Of a DNA stretch of 43,889 bases, positions 17,288 through 27,150 are shown one piece after another; the stretch's first letter is position 1; each line of letters begins with the position of its first letter. The notes below the pieces were generated by a model. It was given only the letters and a program-made list of their open reading frames with translations, ran no database searches and was not told the DNA's origin. The position numbers and the translations under genes were made by a program. The stretch is from Ktedonobacteria bacterium (lineage in GTDB: Bacteria > Chloroflexota > Ktedonobacteria > Ktedonobacterales > JACDGC01). The stretch lies in the NCBI GenBank assembly GCA_027459705.1, contig DAIDHM010000222.1, positions 1-43,889 of the forward strand, written 5' to 3'.

Positions 17288-17342
17288 CAACGAGATCTCT
17301 GTGCCACTGGCGGCACAGACACACAACACAGGAGGACGCACC

Positions 17343-18272
17343 GTGACGATCCCTATGGTCCCATTTGAAGGACATATGAGCTACTGTCTGACTCGTTCGC
17401 TGGCAATGGTACTGGCCTATCGCGGACATACGTATGCGGTACCCTGGCTCGAATGCGTCAGTGGCGAACCATTTGGCTTCGCCTATATCCGCGACAAGCG
17501 GCGATTTTTTGCGATCAATGGCTATGTTTACCACGAAGCCGGACAACACCTCTTGCGCACCTTGAACTTTGATTTCACTTTCAGCGGTTCGCCAGATCAG
17601 GGAGCAGCGCTGGATGCGTTGCGGGCGGCGCTGGCGGATGGCCCGGTGGCGGTGGGCATGCTTGATATGGGCTATCTCACCTACTTTCCGGATCACGCGA
17701 TGTTGCGCGGCGCCGATCATGCCATCGTCGTACTGGCTCTGCAACCAGATTGCGTCATCGTCCACGATCCCGCTGGCTTTGCCGCCGTCCCTTTGCCGTT
17801 GGACGATTTCTGCGCGGCATGGCAACGAGATATCTATACCGGGAAACCATTTGGATTATGGCGCATTGGCGCGCAGACCAGGCCGCCGACTGACGCAGAG
17901 GTCTGGGCACGGACCCTGGCCCGCGCGCGCGCAAACTTCGCCCTCACCACAGAGACGCTCCCGGATGGCACGGTGATTTTGTATGGCCCGGAAGGCATGC
18001 GCACATTGGCGGAAGATTTCCGTGCGGTGGCCACCCCGGAATTGGGCAGCCTCCCGTTCTTCAACTGGCGCGTATCCGCGCAGCGCTGCCTCGACAGCGC
18101 TTTTTACATCCGTGATCGGCTCCCCGTCGCCGCCGCCATTCGCTGGGAAGAATGCCAGCTCTATGGCATGCTGCAACAGGCTTCCTCCGCGCGCAACTAT
18201 GCCGTATTGCCCGAGTTGCTGGAACGCCTCGCTGAGCAAGAAACCAATTTCATTGCCGCTCTGAACGAGTAG
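17343..18272 (+). CDS. BtrH/peptidase C39-like protein
   Basis: A 309-residue protein resembling the BtrH_N/DUF4872 group, which has a papain-like C39 fold. BtrH itself acts as an acyltransferase in butirosin biosynthesis. The likely catalytic residues are Cys15 in SYCLTRSLAMVLAYRG, His126 in GADHAIVVLAL and Asp142 in VIVHDPAG. The C-terminal half is helical, and its function is unknown. The start is GTG 17343, preceded by GGAGG at 7 bp; a longer GTG at 17301 has no ribosome site. It may cleave or transfer an acyl or peptidyl group, but no carrier protein or peptide substrate gene is beside it. The next gene, a shortened Rossmann protein, is 200 bp downstream on the same strand. Confidence 0.7.
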   Translation: MTIPMVPFEGHMSYCLTRSLAMVLAYRGHTYAVPWLECVSGEPFGFAYIRDKRRFFAINGYVYHEAGQHLLRTLNFDFTFSGSPDQGAALDALRAALADGPVAVGMLDMGYLTYFPDHAMLRGADHAIVVLALQPDCVIVHDPAGFAAVPLPLDDFCAAWQRDIYTGKPFGLWRIGAQTRPPTDAEVWARTLARARANFALTTETLPDGTVILYGPEGMRTLAEDFRAVATPELGSLPFFNWRVSAQRCLDSAFYIRDRLPVAAAIRWEECQLYGMLQQASSARNYAVLPELLERLAEQETNFIAALNE

Positions 18273-19129: not shown

Positions 19130-20836
<1,707 letters not shown>

Positions 20837-20942: not shown

Positions 20943-21533
20943 TCAAGCTTGGATGTTCCGTGCCCAGTCCGCGACGGTCGCGTGGTACTGCTCCCAGGCT
21001 TGCCACGTCGTTTCTGCCCAACGCCAGGCGAGGGCCTGATGCTCAGCCGCCGGAAGTTCTGATTGCGCTGGATGGTCCGGTGCCAACTCACAGATACTTG
21101 CCAGATCGGCGATAGTCAGCGGCCCCAGAGTCGGCGGTGGATCGAGCCAGCGATACTCGCGCTGGGCGGCGAGTTGCATGAGTGCCAACACCTGACGCTC
21201 GGGGCGGTGCTGGATGATTTCCCAGTAGATGCCCATCAGATGCACCGCGACCGATTGGACCGCTTGTCGTTCCGGCACACCTGGATGTTGGACCATGTAC
21301 ACATTGGTAGTGAGGGTGCGCAACGATCGTAGAGCCGGGTCAGCCATATGACGTGCCTGCACGGTACCAAACAACCACCAGCATCCGGGGACGGTGCCGA
21401 TATAACGGTTGGCGGGCATGAGGGCAACATCTACTTGAGGAATCAATGCTTTACAACTGGGACAGTATGCCTGTGACTGCATCGCGTCCTGTGTTGGAAT
21501 TGCCACGTCAATCACTCCGCGATCTTTGAGCAC
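20943..21533 (-). CDS. DUF5946 family protein
   Basis: A 196-residue protein of the uncharacterised DUF5946 family. Near the N-terminus it has YCPSCKALIP, a CxxC pair that may bind metal, then GCWWLFGTV, TTNVYMVQHPG and QSVAVHLMGIYW, blocks that recur in that family. A Trp/Ala/Glu-rich helical C-terminus follows. No function is known to me. The annotated start is a GTG at 21533; ATG 21482 (residue 18), with AGGA close upstream, is a credible alternative. It lies 64 bp downstream of the zinc-ribbon gene and probably shares the palindromic promoter at 21868-21897. Confidence 0.7.
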   Translation of the reverse strand: MLKDRGVIDVAIPTQDAMQSQAYCPSCKALIPQVDVALMPANRYIGTVPGCWWLFGTVQARHMADPALRSLRTLTTNVYMVQHPGVPERQAVQSVAVHLMGIYWEIIQHRPERQVLALMQLAAQREYRWLDPPPTLGPLTIADLASICELAPDHPAQSELPAAEHQALAWRWAETTWQAWEQYHATVADWARNIQA

Positions 21534-21597
21534 AATGAAGACCTGCGCGTGGCCATGTCAAATGAGATGTAGGATTGTCGGGATCGATCCGGTCTGT

Positions 21598-21789
21598 TCA
21601 GGCCTGACGGGGCCGTGAGCACGGCACAGCATCCGTCAAGCGATCGACACGATATCGCAGGCATTTTTGACATACCCAGCATTTGTCGGAAGGAGCTTGC
21701 TGGAAGCGCGTCTGGTGTCGACAGCGCGGGCATGTACAGACATAGGCGTTCGTGTCGTGGGTCGATTTTTTCTGCTCTGTTGTCATCAT
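21598..21789 (-). CDS. Small zinc-ribbon protein
   Basis: A 63-residue protein with two cysteine pairs (CTCPRC and CWVCQKC) about 18 residues apart, the geometry of a zinc ribbon. The N-terminus is polar and the C-terminus basic. Its function is unknown; it may bind nucleic acid or a protein partner. ATG 21789 has CGGAG 8 bp upstream and is preferred to an in-frame TTG at 21807. It is the first gene after a strong promoter with a palindromic operator, with a leader of about 75 nt, and precedes the DUF5946 gene on the same strand. Confidence 0.6.
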   Translation of the reverse strand: MMTTEQKKSTHDTNAYVCTCPRCRHQTRFQQAPSDKCWVCQKCLRYRVDRLTDAVPCSRPRQA

Positions 21790-21867
21790 TGATTCATCTC
21801 CGTCCAAACTGAACAGCTTAGCACGCGTGGTGTTTTCAGCGCCGCTCGCGATTGGATGCTCTCTTAC

Positions 21868-21897
21868 AATATTAGGTCACCCTAATATTTTTGTCAA
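21868..21897 (-). promoter_or_regulatory. Strong promoter with embedded palindromic operator
   Basis: On the minus strand, a perfect TTGACA (21897-21892), a 17-bp spacer and TAATAT (21874-21869). A perfect 9-bp inverted repeat, AATATTAGG-N4-CCTAATATT (21868-21889), covers the -10 box and most of the spacer, so a bound dimer would block polymerase. The half-site TTAGG resembles DtxR/IdeR-type iron boxes, but the spacing differs and no such regulator is in the window. Confidence 0.7.
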
Positions 21898-22015
21898 GAG
21901 GGATTGCACCGGCTGAGATGCGTCTGTGAGGTCCGGGGATGGGCCTCGCCAGGGTAACCGAAATCAAACGGTGACGCGCATCGGAAGTTCATGCGCAGCA
22001 AGTCGCGGCAGCCCC

Positions 22016-22040
22016 ATTGGCATGGCCAATAGGCTATAAT
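22016..22040 (+). promoter_or_regulatory. Promoter and palindrome upstream of the aminotransferase
   Basis: TATAAT at 22035-22040 sits in the word GCTATAATAG, also present before the FHA gene. Five bases upstream of the -10 is a palindrome ATTGGC-ATG-GCCAAT (22016-22030), which occupies the spacer region and could be an operator. No good -35 is visible. The leader to the ATG would be about 70 nt. Confidence 0.5.
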
Positions 22041-22116
22041 AGCTGGTGGTAAGAATAATGAAACCTGGCGTGCGGATGGTTGAATGTGGCCGACGACGCC
22101 GGAAGGTGGGCGAGAG

Positions 22117-23316
22117 ATGGCAACAGACACGACAGAGACAAGCGCTACAGTCCGACGAGACTATCTCGCGGAACGTGTCCGCAAGGTCAAGCCTTCGGGT
22201 ATTCGCCGTTTCTTCGATATCGCGGCTTCTATCCCTGATATGATCTCATTGGGAGTCGGCGAACCTGATTTCACGACACCGGAACATATCCGCGAGGCGG
22301 GCATCGCGTCGATCCGCGCGGGGCAGACGCACTACACCTCGAACTATGGCACGATCGAATTGCGACGGGCAATCGCCCACGAACTGGCGATGCGTTATGG
22401 ATTGACCTATGACCCAACGAATGAAATAGTCGTGACCGTGGGGGTCAGCGAGGCGGTGGATCTGGCGTTGCGAGCCCTGATCGACCCCGGCGACGAGGTA
22501 TTGACGCCTGATCCTGGCTATGTCGCTTATGAAGCAGGGATTATCTTCGCGGGTGGCGTCCCGGTCCCCGTGCCGACGCTCGCCGCCGAAGGTTTCGAGC
22601 CTCAGGCAGCGGCCTTTGCCAGTCGCATCACCGCGCGTACCAAGGCAATTCTGATTGGTTCGCCGAATAACCCCACTGGCGCGGTGATCTCGCGCGAGCA
22701 GATGGAGGGGATTGCGGCGCTGGCACAGGAACACGATCTGATCGTCATCAGCGACGAAATTTACAGCCGCTTGATCTATGGCGTCGATCACATTGCCTTC
22801 GCATCCCTGCCAGGGATGCGTGATCGCACCATTACCCTCAATGGCTTCTCTAAAGCCTACGCGATGACCGGCTGGCGCGTGGGGTATGCTGCCGCGCCCA
22901 AGGCTATCCTGGAAGCAATGCTGAAGATCCATCAATATACTATCATGTGCGCTCCCACCGATGCCCAGGCCGCCGCGTTGCAAGCGCTGGAACATGGCGA
23001 GCCGGATGTGAACGAGATGGTGGCCGAGTATACCCGGCGCCGCACGCTGATCGTCAATGGCCTGAATCAGTTAGGTCTCCCATGCCACGAGCCAAAGGGG
23101 GCCTTCTACGCATTTCCCCGCATCGACCACCTGGGGATGGACGCCGACACGTTCGTTGAACGGCTTATCCAGGAGGAGCATGTCGCGGTCGTCCCTGGTG
23201 ACGCCTTTGGCGAAAGTGGCGTCGGCCACATCCGCTGTGCGTATTGTGTGGCGTATGACCGGCTGGAAGAAGCACTGGACCGCATTGGACGCTTTGTGGC
23301 CAGACACCGCGGATAG
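22117..23316 (+). CDS. Class I/II pyridoxal-phosphate aminotransferase
   Basis: A 399-residue fold-type I aminotransferase. Characteristic elements are GVGEPDF near the N-terminus, the cofactor-contacting Asn in SPNNPTGAV, Asp and Tyr in VISDEIYSRL, the PLP lysine in LNGFSKAYAMTGWRVGY, and the substrate-carboxylate Arg near the C-terminus (HIRCAY). This pattern fits the aspartate/aromatic aminotransferase subgroup Ig, but the amino donor cannot be fixed from sequence. ATG 22117 is preferred over the frame to 22084 because AAGGTGG lies upstream. It is transcribed alone from the promoter at 22016-22040 and faces rhaB across 141 bp. Confidence 0.92.
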   Translation: MATDTTETSATVRRDYLAERVRKVKPSGIRRFFDIAASIPDMISLGVGEPDFTTPEHIREAGIASIRAGQTHYTSNYGTIELRRAIAHELAMRYGLTYDPTNEIVVTVGVSEAVDLALRALIDPGDEVLTPDPGYVAYEAGIIFAGGVPVPVPTLAAEGFEPQAAAFASRITARTKAILIGSPNNPTGAVISREQMEGIAALAQEHDLIVISDEIYSRLIYGVDHIAFASLPGMRDRTITLNGFSKAYAMTGWRVGYAAAPKAILEAMLKIHQYTIMCAPTDAQAAALQALEHGEPDVNEMVAEYTRRRTLIVNGLNQLGLPCHEPKGAFYAFPRIDHLGMDADTFVERLIQEEHVAVVPGDAFGESGVGHIRCAYCVAYDRLEEALDRIGRFVARHRG

Positions 23317-23457: not shown

Positions 23458-24954
23458 TCAACGCAGCGCGTTGAAGTGCGCCAGCGCATCCTGCCAGGAA
23501 GCTCGTTGTGTCGGTTGAGGTTCGAAGCGCTCCACCTCGGCGTATTGGGCAATCAAGCGCACATCGGCGAGCGAACCAAGCTCACCGAGGCCGACGAACT
23601 GCATCAATGCATTGCCAAGCGCGGTCGATTCAGCGGGGCCAGCCATCACCGGACAGCCCAGGCAATCCGCCAGCCACTGATTCATGAGCCGGTTGCGCGA
23701 TCCCCCACCCAAGACATGGATCATCTGATATGATGCGCCCGTCAGATCGGCGATTTCGCCGAATATCTGCGCCGAACGCAGCACGAGGCTTTCCATGATG
23801 CCGCGGGCGATGGCTGGTGGCGAAAGCTCAGTGCCAGACCATGTCACACCGCGTTCTCTAAGATTGCCCATGATAGTGGCGGGCATGTCGTCAGGCGCGA
23901 GGAAGCGGGGATCGTCGGGTTCGATGATGCCAACAAAGGCGGGTTCTCGTGCCGCCGCTGCCAGGATCTCCCCATATTCCCACGTGTCGCCCCGCTCTCG
24001 CCAGGTCCGGAGACACTCCTGCAGGAGCCATAATCCCATGACATTTTTCAAGAATCGGGTGGTGCCAAAAATCCCGCCTTCATTGGTGCAATTTGCTGCC
24101 AGCGCAGCAGGGGTCAGCACGGGCGTCGCGAGTTCGACACCGACCAGAGACCATGTTCCCGAACTGATATAGCCCCAGGTGGGGCTCGCCATGCCTGACA
24201 TTGCCAGTGTAGGTACGGCGGCGATAGCGCTCCCCGTATCATGGGTCGCGGGCGCGATAATGTGCGCCATGCCGATCTCGGCCTGAATCGCCGGTGCGAC
24301 TACCCCCAGATCTGTGCCTGGTTCGATAATTGGCGGCAGGAACCCTGTTGGCAATTCCAGGGCGGCCAAGAGTTCGGTCGCCCAGTCACGCGTGTTTGGA
24401 TTCCAGCATTGGGTAGTGCTGGCATTGGTTCGCTCCGCAACGAGATCGCCACCGAGCCAGGCATGGAGGAGATCGGGAATCAGCAACATCCGATGAGCGG
24501 AGGCCAGATCGCCGGGTAAACAGCGTTCTTGAGCTTCCAGTTGATAGAGCGTATTGAATGGCAAAAATTGCGTCCCGGTCTGGGCATAGATGCTCGCGCG
24601 GGGAATGCGCGCCAAAACGCGCTCCATCGCGCCATCGGTGCGATGATCACGATAGGCGTATGGCAAACCGCGTAGCAGCCCAAATTGATCCACCAGGCCA
24701 TAATCGATGGCCCACGAATCAATGCCAACACTGTCTAGTATGCCGTTGGCCGCTGTCTTCGCGCCGCGTAGTCCCGCGAGAATCTCTTGCCAGAGTTGTG
24801 GGAGGTTCCAGAAACGATGGCCCCGGATGAAGACGGGGCGATTGGGGAAGCGATGGATCTCTTCGAGCGTGCATCTCCCCCCGTCGAAGCGTGCCAGCAT
24901 AACCCGTCCACTCTCCGCACCGAGATCAACCGCCGCCACCGTGCGCGATGCCAT
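23458..24954 (-). CDS. rhaB: Rhamnulokinase
   Basis: A 498-residue FGGY-family sugar kinase that phosphorylates L-rhamnulose at C1. The phosphate-1 motif AVDLGAESGRVML is at the N-terminus. SVGIDSWAIDYGLVD, the substrate-region block YRDHRT and the C-terminal adenosine motif HVLGGGSRNRLMNQWLADCLG are present, and the AESGR and WAVDYG-type motifs are characteristic of rhamnulokinases within the FGGY group. AGAGGAA lies about 8 bp before the ATG. It is the last gene of the minus-strand rhamnose cluster, 72 bp after the aldolase/dehydrogenase gene. It makes the substrate of RhaEW. Confidence 0.95.
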   Translation of the reverse strand: MASRTVAAVDLGAESGRVMLARFDGGRCTLEEIHRFPNRPVFIRGHRFWNLPQLWQEILAGLRGAKTAANGILDSVGIDSWAIDYGLVDQFGLLRGLPYAYRDHRTDGAMERVLARIPRASIYAQTGTQFLPFNTLYQLEAQERCLPGDLASAHRMLLIPDLLHAWLGGDLVAERTNASTTQCWNPNTRDWATELLAALELPTGFLPPIIEPGTDLGVVAPAIQAEIGMAHIIAPATHDTGSAIAAVPTLAMSGMASPTWGYISSGTWSLVGVELATPVLTPAALAANCTNEGGIFGTTRFLKNVMGLWLLQECLRTWRERGDTWEYGEILAAAAREPAFVGIIEPDDPRFLAPDDMPATIMGNLRERGVTWSGTELSPPAIARGIMESLVLRSAQIFGEIADLTGASYQMIHVLGGGSRNRLMNQWLADCLGCPVMAGPAESTALGNALMQFVGLGELGSLADVRLIAQYAEVERFEPQPTQRASWQDALAHFNALR

Positions 24955-25026
24955 GCGATGCTTCCTCTCCGCCGCCTATCGGCTACCTGTTGATGCGCCC
25001 TCAGAGATCCGCCAGCCCGACCACGA

Positions 25027-27150
25027 TTAGCGCGGATATGCTGCGGGTACGCCACCATCGACATTCAATATGTTGCCCGTGCTCTTGGGAGCACGAGTTG
25101 GTGATGCAAAGAATGCGACCGCTTCCGCGATGTCATCCGGGTAGATATTGACCCCAAGGGTAGTGCGTTTGCGATACACTTCGTCCAGTTGATCTGGGGC
25201 GACCCCATAGGTTGCTGCGCGCTCGGCGCGCCAGGAACTGTCCCAGATGCGCGAGCCAGCGAGAACCGCATCGGGGTTGACCGTATTGACGCGGATGCCG
25301 TCGGCGCCGCCTTCCTCGGCCAGGCAACGCGCGAGGTGCACCTCCGCGGCTTTGGCGGTGGAATAGGCCGCGGCATTCTTGCCCGCCACCAGGGCATTTT
25401 TACTCGCGACAAAGACGAGATTGCCACCGCGCCTTTGCTGACGTAAGACGCGAAAGCCCTCGCGCGCCACCAGAAAATAGCCAGTTGTGAGCACATTCCA
25501 ATTGCGATTCCACATGGCGAGCGAGGTCTCGGTGATCGGCGCGCTGGAGGCGAGACCGGCGTTGTTGACAATCACATCGAGACCGCCGAATGCCAGGGTC
25601 GCCTGCGCGAAAGCCGTCGCGACACTCGCTTCATCGGTGACATCCATGCGGACTGCCACCGCTCGGCCAGCGCCAAATTTCGTGTTGATCGCCTCCGCCA
25701 CGCGCTCGGCCCCCTCCAGATCGATATCCGCCAGGACGACCTGCGCCCCATCGCGTGCCACACGCCGCGCGATGGCGGAGCCGATGCCGCCCGCTGCGCC
25801 GGTCACGAGCACGATATGCCGCGCAAACTCGCGCTCTGGGGGGGCTAATTGCAATTTATACTGCTCCAATGGCCAGTACTCTACAGCATAGCTCTCGGCG
25901 GCGGTCAGCGAGATAAAGCCACCACAGGCCTCAGCTCCCGCCATTACCGCGATGGCCCGATGGTAGAGTTGGGCCGCCACATCCGCCATAGCGGCATCCT
26001 TGCCGGTGGTCAGCATGCCAACTCCAGGGATCAGGATGACTCGCGGATGAGGATCGCTGACCGCATCGGCTGCCCGATAGACTGGGGTTGCCGCGTCAGG
26101 ATCGAGATCCTGTTCGGCGTTGGCTGCCAGGTAGGTCCGATATTGTTCGACGTAGCTGGCGACTTCGCTTTCGAGGGCTGCAACAAGGGCGTCCACGCCT
26201 TGTGAGGGTTCCCAGTCGACCAACAACGGCCACGGTTTGGTATGGACGAGATGATCGGGGCAAGCCGCGCCGATCTTGGTAAGTCTCGGCGCGTCCATGC
26301 TGCCAATAAATTCCAACAGATCCGCGCTATCCTCGAAATGCAGGATCTGGTGACGATCGGCACTGACCAACCCGCGTAATGTCGGGGCGATTGCAGCGGC
26401 GACCCGCGCTCGATCTTGGGCATCCAGTGCCGCTACCCGGGATCCTCCGAACAGTTGTCGCGCGGGCTGGCGGGCGATGTGAGCAGCGACGAAGGATTTT
26501 GCCTGGTCGATGGTCGCCAGGGTCGTCGCAAAGCATTCGGCATCGGTCGCGCCCCAGGTAATAAGTCCATGTTTTGCCAGAATAACCAGGCGAGCGTGTG
26601 GCGCTGCGCGGACGGCAAGTGCCACTTCGCGCGCCAGGCCGAAGCCAGGGCGGCGATAGGGAATCCAGATCAGGGCGTCGCCAAAGCAGGCGCGTGCTAA
26701 CCGTTCGCCATCGGCCGCGCAGGCAAAAAAATTGGTCGCATCGGCGTGCGTGTGGTCGATATGGTTGAAGGGGAGGAAGGCATGGAGTAGTGTCTCAATC
26801 GATGGGCGCGGGCGGGCGGGTTCAAAAAAACAATGGGCGAGATACTCGACCATCTCGCTATCACTCATCCGCTCGCGTGCCAACAAGGGCGTGAGATCAT
26901 CGAGATAGAGGCCGGTGAACGATGCCGCTGTCACGGTTGCCAGGTCAGAACCAGATCCTTTCACCCAGAGTACGCGTGACGGTCGTCCGCGAAAATCTAC
27001 CGCGTCAGCTTTGGCGGAAGTATTCCCACCGCCCCAGTTGCAGACGGTACGGTCAGCGCCGAGACGGCGAGATCGCGTCACCAACTCTTCAAGGGGGGAA
27101 AGCCTGGCTGTCGCGTCGGCGCCGTTCGGCGCGTTACTCTCATTCTGCAT
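25027..27150 (-). CDS. rhaEW: Bifunctional rhamnulose-1-phosphate aldolase / lactaldehyde dehydrogenase (RhaEW)
   Basis: A 707-residue fusion. The N-terminal part (about 10-370) is a class II aldolase domain: metal-ligand histidines in HIDHTHAD and HGLITWG fit zinc-dependent cleavage of rhamnulose-1-phosphate to DHAP and L-lactaldehyde. The C-terminal part (about 435-707) is a short-chain dehydrogenase with VTGAAGGIGSAIARR, NNAG and the catalytic YSTAK, expected to oxidise lactaldehyde to L-lactate with NAD+. Equivalent fusions are known in Chloroflexus and Bacillus. The ribosome site GAGGAG overlaps the rhaM stop 13 bp upstream, so the two are tightly coupled. Both active sites look intact. 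Confidence 0.95.
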   Translation of the reverse strand: MQNESNAPNGADATARLSPLEELVTRSRRLGADRTVCNWGGGNTSAKADAVDFRGRPSRVLWVKGSGSDLATVTAASFTGLYLDDLTPLLARERMSDSEMVEYLAHCFFEPARPRPSIETLLHAFLPFNHIDHTHADATNFFACAADGERLARACFGDALIWIPYRRPGFGLAREVALAVRAAPHARLVILAKHGLITWGATDAECFATTLATIDQAKSFVAAHIARQPARQLFGGSRVAALDAQDRARVAAAIAPTLRGLVSADRHQILHFEDSADLLEFIGSMDAPRLTKIGAACPDHLVHTKPWPLLVDWEPSQGVDALVAALESEVASYVEQYRTYLAANAEQDLDPDAATPVYRAADAVSDPHPRVILIPGVGMLTTGKDAAMADVAAQLYHRAIAVMAGAEACGGFISLTAAESYAVEYWPLEQYKLQLAPPEREFARHIVLVTGAAGGIGSAIARRVARDGAQVVLADIDLEGAERVAEAINTKFGAGRAVAVRMDVTDEASVATAFAQATLAFGGLDVIVNNAGLASSAPITETSLAMWNRNWNVLTTGYFLVAREGFRVLRQQRRGGNLVFVASKNALVAGKNAAAYSTAKAAEVHLARCLAEEGGADGIRVNTVNPDAVLAGSRIWDSSWRAERAATYGVAPDQLDEVYRKRTTLGVNIYPDDIAEAVAFFASPTRAPKSTGNILNVDGGVPAAYPR

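Follow-up and report, generated by a model that had tools for sequence, protein, structure and literature searches.

The window, by which we mean the whole stretch of 43,889 nucleotides that was analysed, contains a promoter overlaid by a palindrome, with two genes to its left on the minus strand and an aminotransferase gene to its right on the plus strand. The features of the locus, in order of position, are:

20943-21482, minus strand: gene for a DUF5946 protein of 179 amino acids (ATG at 21482; alternative GTG start at 21533)
21598-21789, minus strand: gene for a 63-amino-acid Cys-rich (zinc-ribbon-like) protein (ATG at 21789 with GGAG upstream, read by eye)
21868-21889, no strand assigned: palindromic operator AATATTAGG-N4-CCTAATATT (read directly and scanned, 0 mismatches)
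21869-21874, minus strand: -10 hexamer TAATAT, which is one half-site of the palindrome (read and scanned)
21872-21885: operator core TTAGG-N4-CCTAA, a DtxR/IdeR-type half-site or single-dimer box (from the sequence and the consensus in an excerpt of PMC8464063)
21892-21897, minus strand: -35 hexamer TTGACA (promoter scan)
22084-23316, plus strand: divergent class I/II aminotransferase gene (domain match)

On the minus strand the promoter reads TTGACA-AAAATATTAGGGTGACC-TAATAT with a -35/-10 spacer of 17, and the palindrome AATATTAGG-TCAC-CCTAATATT is a perfect 9-bp inverted repeat with a spacer of 4. A preliminary description of this DNA had reported these two hexamers at 17-bp spacing overlaid by a perfect 9-bp inverted repeat, and direct reading and scans confirmed the arrangement. 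TAATAT lies inside the palindrome, an overlap with the -10 of the kind described for IdeR-repressed genes. At up to 3 mismatches the palindrome was the single match in the window, and 100 shuffles gave none. A search of 21000-22400 against Rfam returned no riboswitch and two sub-threshold chance matches only.

According to the same description, the half-sites bear only a loose resemblance to iron boxes. The IdeR/DtxR box has been described as a 19-bp TTAGGTTAGSCTAACCTAA, with a proposed redefinition to a 14-bp TTAGGNNNNCCTAA that is bound by one dimer, as stated in the excerpted text of PMC8464063. Because the core in the window equals this published 14-bp consensus with 0 mismatches, that assessment is wrong; it is also contradicted by the occurrence of the same layout before a DtxR-type regulator gene of the same genome and before metal-uptake genes of relatives, both described below. 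The window site has two CCTAA repeats spaced by N4, rather than the four repeats of the full 19-bp two-dimer palindrome. We ran the genome-wide palindrome search that had been proposed, and the 18-bp form TATTAGG-N4-CCTAATA occurred once in the whole genome at 0 mismatches. The exact core TTAGG-N4-CCTAA likewise has 1 copy in the 4,614,150-base genome. With up to 1 mismatch allowed, the core had 14 genomic sites and the reversed control pattern 135, about ten times as many, so that core sites are rare in this genome. Most of the 13 sites with one mismatch lie inside ORFs; the site on contig C61 is a clear promoter site, and that at C48:333 falls between ORFs without promoter context.

The two leftward genes differ in how well they can be assigned. 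The DUF5946 assignment was borne out by Pfam (PF19371, E 1.5e-25, 90.8 bits against a gathering cut-off of 28). The 63-amino-acid protein had been called a zinc-ribbon protein, a label that rests solely on the pattern C-x-C-P-x-C...C-x-x-C-x-x-C; the Cys pattern is present, and searches of Pfam and NCBIfam gave no family match. Base composition by codon position was like that of its neighbours for the DUF5946 gene and less clear for the 63-amino-acid ORF. With the two possible DUF5946 starts, the gap between the genes comes to 64 or 115 bases, and a terminator scan listed none between them. Across 32 aligned DUF5946 members, for which 31 of the 33 other loci were taken and L009 and L040 left out, C8, C11, C35, H67 and T124 are invariant. 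The invariant residues suggest a Cys3His metal site in DUF5946, and since three Cys and one His are invariant a metal-linked role becomes directly testable. The predicted fold of the DUF5946 protein is a confident model (pLDDT 89.4); Foldseek found no match to it in the PDB at an E of 0.001 or better, and the best VIA-align hit (Z 5.5) was a designed helical protein and uninformative. Elsewhere in the window, a gene for an FGGY-type sugar kinase adjoins a class II aldolase/short-chain dehydrogenase fusion gene (23458-27150), and a gene for a BtrH_N-domain protein (17301-18272) adjoins a cytochrome P450 gene (15964-17193, minus strand); the latter two possibly form a small biosynthetic locus.

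The zinc-ribbon protein gave weak matches in only 3 of 60 other genomes, two of them with internal stops, and the DUF5946 protein gave 4 weak matches only in 60 relatives. A scan of genome contigs for conservation of the gene pair found nothing. The preliminary description had proposed a profile of the pair, to count against it if the two genes were never neighbours elsewhere; the profile was run, and 0/33 other DUF5946 loci had a small Cys4 ORF upstream, so that among these loci the objection holds. The core box, perfect or with 1 mismatch, was also found upstream of DUF5946 at 0/33 other loci, and the DUF5946 family is therefore not generally behind the box. Our literature searches found no paper on DUF5946, no prior link of these genes to a DtxR/IdeR-type box, and nothing for Ktedonobacter together with DtxR.

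We sought the regulator in the same genome. A search for DtxR-type regulators gave 4 matches, 3 of them above the family cut-off, the best being a protein encoded on contig C61 (hereafter the C61 regulator). It matches Pfam Fe_dep_repress (PF01325, 3.2e-18), Fe_dep_repr_C (PF02742, 2.4e-32) and FeoA (PF04023, 3.7e-5), and so has the N-terminal wHTH, the dimerisation domain and the SH3/FeoA-like C-terminal domain of iron sensors. Its best PDB match is the DtxR-family iron-dependent repressor 7b1v (1.7e-37), and among solved structures IdeR and DtxR are its nearest relatives. Of the core sites with up to 1 mismatch, 14 in all, one falls in the leader of the C61 gene, where TTGACG-N17-TAATAT is overlaid by TTAGGGTATGCTAA in the register of the window site, the right half-site forming the -10. 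The combined pattern TTGAC-N7-TTAGG-N5-CTAATAT occurs exactly in this genome at the window site and the C61 leader only. With this same promoter-operator before its own gene, the regulator probably represses itself. The box was present in 5/30 regions upstream of C61 orthologues, being kept in 4/4 strong orthologues of family f1 (G000, G001, G002 and G004) and in G007 of another family. The other 25/30 regions had no box, and autoregulation is therefore not general.

The metal to which the C61 regulator would respond was approached through its ligands. At DtxR numbering it has Glu10, His79, Glu83, His98, Cys102, Glu105 and His106, all but the first being retained from DtxR. Of the primary-site ligands as listed in excerpts of PMC4805248 and PMC10317159, Cys102, Glu105 and His106 are kept and Met10 is replaced by Glu. 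The excerpt of PMC10317159 states that selectivity for Fe2+ is raised by the sulphur ligands Met10 and Cys102, in whose place MntR proteins have Asp or Asn, and Glu. Because of the Glu at the Met10 position, both Fe and Mn are possible for the C61 regulator, and the genes that follow the box in relatives speak mainly for iron, which is probably its metal. The second DtxR-type gene, on contig C81, adjoins an Nramp-like ORF (read by eye) and has no such box upstream, which makes C61 the likelier iron sensor. The C61 regulator is thus likely the cognate iron sensor and C81 likely a manganese sensor.

To place the promoter-operator in a wider frame we used a phylum sample of 400 genomes, 47 of them in this order and 353 outside it. 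In a count of exact rows made by hand, TTGAC-N7-TTAGG-N5-CTAATAT had 21 exact copies, found in 15/47 genomes of the order and 0/353 others; at up to 2 mismatches the pattern was present in 92/400 genomes. A strong C61 orthologue was present in 15/15 genomes with an exact site, and the order genomes lacking one (G003, G005, G010, G012 and G029) had 0 exact sites in 5/5 cases, so that the co-occurrence of box and regulator across the order is consistent but small. The half pattern TTAGG-N5-CTAATA has few exact copies in seven close genomes and recurs at the regulator gene in four of them, G000, G001, G002 and G004. When five genomes were searched for the longer pattern at 2 mismatches, most of the sites fell within ORFs, and we discarded them as chance matches. 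The preliminary description had named a palindrome both unique and not conserved as grounds for refutation; this objection does not stand, since the box is found again at the regulator gene and in relatives. Since the box recurs and the pair is not conserved, the proposed regulation would be old and shared and the gene pair lineage-specific.

The genes behind the box were then identified for 40 fetched sites, 14 of the 19 exact sites outside this genome and 26 with 1-2 mismatches, taking as target the longest ORF on the same strand that begins no more than 420 bases from the -35 (at L218, the second). Eight of the 14 exact sites precede metal-uptake genes. By kind, the targets at exact sites are an FTR1-type permease at 5/14 (one by a Pfam scan, the others by likeness judged by eye), a canonical FTR1, an Nramp and a periplasmic binding protein (Peripla_BP_2) at 1/14 each, a small Cys-rich protein at 3/14, a protein kind without Pfam match at 2/14 (one scanned), and a transporter-like protein, for which no Pfam scan was made, at 1/14. 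The 26 sites with 1-2 mismatches precede 9 metal- or oxidative-stress-linked genes, 4 for small Cys-rich proteins and 13 that are other or unclear. The 9 comprise cupredoxin-imelysin (4) and one each of Nramp-like, FTR1-like, Fe/Mn superoxide dismutase, PepSY_TM and Zip, 4 of these assignments having been scanned and the rest made by eye from likeness to the scanned ones. In relatives, therefore, the box stands before iron-uptake genes of the FTR1, cupredoxin/imelysin, Peripla_BP_2 and Nramp kinds, and in G001 three TTAGGGTACCCTCATAT copies lie between divergent FTR1-type permease and cupredoxin genes (L121, 4925-5060). In the genome of the window, neither of the two full promoter-operators precedes an uptake gene, and an FTR1 search in 8 genomes gave matches in 3, none of them this one.

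Several targets are less readily named. In G038, G039, G040, G042, G043, G044 and G046 the box precedes a protein of 76-108 amino acids with a common Cys/His pattern (L197, L198, L201, L218, L219, L220 and L221); the member scanned had no Pfam match. The 63-amino-acid protein of the window gave no convincing alignment with this family, and we therefore claim an analogy of position and not homology. An exact box also precedes a protein of 377-384 amino acids starting MS[N/D]FCFGIEHEVAF (L199 and L200; G009 and G013), of which one member was scanned with no Pfam match. A second box was found upstream of a DUF6421-like gene in G004 (L119:5475-6848) and G002 (L118, right end), where it is positioned upstream of the likely promoter and not over it. 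The match to DUF6421, at 24.5 bits, is just below the Pfam cut-off of 25. The protein has HEWSH-22-E, which fits HE/DxxHx(21-23)E, given in an excerpt of PMC12614342 as the motif of the Fe/pterin enzyme PolE. The orthologue in the genome of the window (L156, 67% identity) has no box upstream.

Alignment of the box promoters revealed a further element downstream. We aligned 45 promoters, consisting of the 40 fetched sites and five regulator-gene sites (loci L188-L227 and L058-L061). A conserved AGTCGGATAT, outside the search pattern at an offset of +40 to +49 from the TTGAC start, was present at up to 3 mismatches in 26/45 promoters, while other offsets averaged 0.175, a comparison in which the promoters are not independent, since they come from related genomes. 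With ATATCYKAGT it makes up an inverted repeat centred 19 bp downstream of the box, which may be another dimer site or the operator of a different regulator. The C61 regulator gene has the AGTCGGATAT element with 1 mismatch. At 21848-21857 in the window it is absent (8 of 10 mismatches), and the window promoter therefore has the core switch only.

Taken together, these observations make it very probable that the palindrome is a DtxR/IdeR metal box through which a metal-loaded dimer of the C61 regulator, probably carrying iron, represses the zinc-ribbon and DUF5946 genes. At the level of sequence, the comparison of genomes establishes the layout of the promoter-operator and the fact that it recurs, and shows that the regulator is encoded and that metal-uptake genes follow the box in relatives. 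The box would be of the 14-bp single-dimer type, with one half-site serving as the -10 of a near-consensus sigma-70 promoter. With Fe2+ (or Mn2+) the C61 regulator would bind as one dimer and block RNA polymerase, keeping both genes silent in metal-replete cells. As iron falls the dimer would leave, a leftward transcript spanning the two genes would be made, and both proteins would presumably serve metal handling at low iron. Because the dimer would cover the -10 region, the two genes should be on only when iron is short. The earlier proposal of a strong promoter overlaid by an operator before two uncharacterised genes, hence a conditional unit, is supported. Against a reading in terms of iron only stand the Glu at the Met10 position and the Nramp, Zip and superoxide dismutase genes that are also behind boxes. 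Against the metal box itself stand the two full promoter-operators of this genome, neither of them with an uptake gene behind it, the failure to find FTR1 here, the boxes of G002 and G004 that lie upstream of the likely promoter, the missing AGTCGGATAT element in the window and the lack of conservation of the gene pair.

The missing element bears on an alternative that we consider unlikely, namely that a different regulator, for instance one of TetR or MarR type or the C81 protein acting as a manganese sensor, uses the palindrome as its operator, and that the likeness of the palindrome to an IdeR half-site is convergent. A second DtxR-type protein is indeed encoded beside an Nramp-like ORF, the window site is without the flanking element of most sister promoters, and its centre is unlike the commonest centre; but the C61 gene and metal-uptake genes of relatives have the same box upstream, in a matching register, and the C81 gene itself has none. 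It is highly improbable that the divergent aminotransferase gene (22084-23316, plus strand), rather than the leftward pair, is the main target of the operator: the palindrome sits in the shared intergenic region, but about 195 bases from that gene's start, with a TATAAT (22035-22040, by eye) much closer, and it is the minus-strand -35 and -10 that fit the palindrome in the register of the regulator-gene promoter. We give almost no weight to a plus-strand terminator or RNA hairpin with a stem followed by TTTTT, which would account for the plus-strand RNA folding at -11.7 kcal/mol (z -5.28) and the run of T that follows, since any perfect palindrome folds, the terminator scan does not list it, no plus-strand gene ends nearby (IMPDH ends at 20836), and the counterpart box at the regulator gene is an imperfect hairpin.

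Returning to the metal box and its proposed binding by the C61 regulator, we tentatively suggest, as a reading that is possible without being the likelier outcome, an order-wide iron response from promoters in which a single-dimer half-site is fused to the -10 in one constant register, usually with a second element (ATATCYKAGT ... AGTCGGATAT, interlocked, centred 19 bp downstream). The window would then show this switch placed on a lineage-specific pair of small Cys/His metalloproteins, both of which could be low-iron metal carriers or iron-sparing substitutes, in parallel to an apparently unrelated small Cys-rich protein that is boxed in 7 sister genomes. On the main reading, DUF5946 gains a physiological condition to test, iron shortage.

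As judged from its sequence, the switch is of a known kind, a DtxR/IdeR-type box over a -10, and the genes under it were previously unlinked to it in the literature searched. The main surprise is that a one-dimer half-site in a fixed register is apparently used consistently across the order, and that DUF5946 and small Cys-rich proteins seem to be linked to the box. IdeR-type regulators have been proposed to use half-sites too, in a role that the excerpt of PMC8464063 describes as still to be investigated, and the half-sites found here, which appear to be working operators of an order-wide metal regulon, are natural test cases for that question. As in IdeR/DtxR systems, the genome has a gene for a DtxR-type regulator, and the operator lies over the -10 region; IdeR-repressed genes likewise have boxes that cover the -10, the start site or both (PMC10317159, excerpt). 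In contrast to the 19-bp two-dimer box, the window has a one-dimer half-site only, which doubles as the -10 hexamer in a register common across the order, and the C61 regulator has Glu in place of Met10. In PgMntR, as described in an excerpt of PMC4805248, a carboxylate takes the place of Met10 and the Cys at 102 is present, the same mix of Mn- and Fe-type ligands as in the C61 regulator. PgMntR has Asp and twin FeoA domains, whereas the C61 regulator has Glu and one weak FeoA match, and its best sequence matches are IdeR and DtxR.
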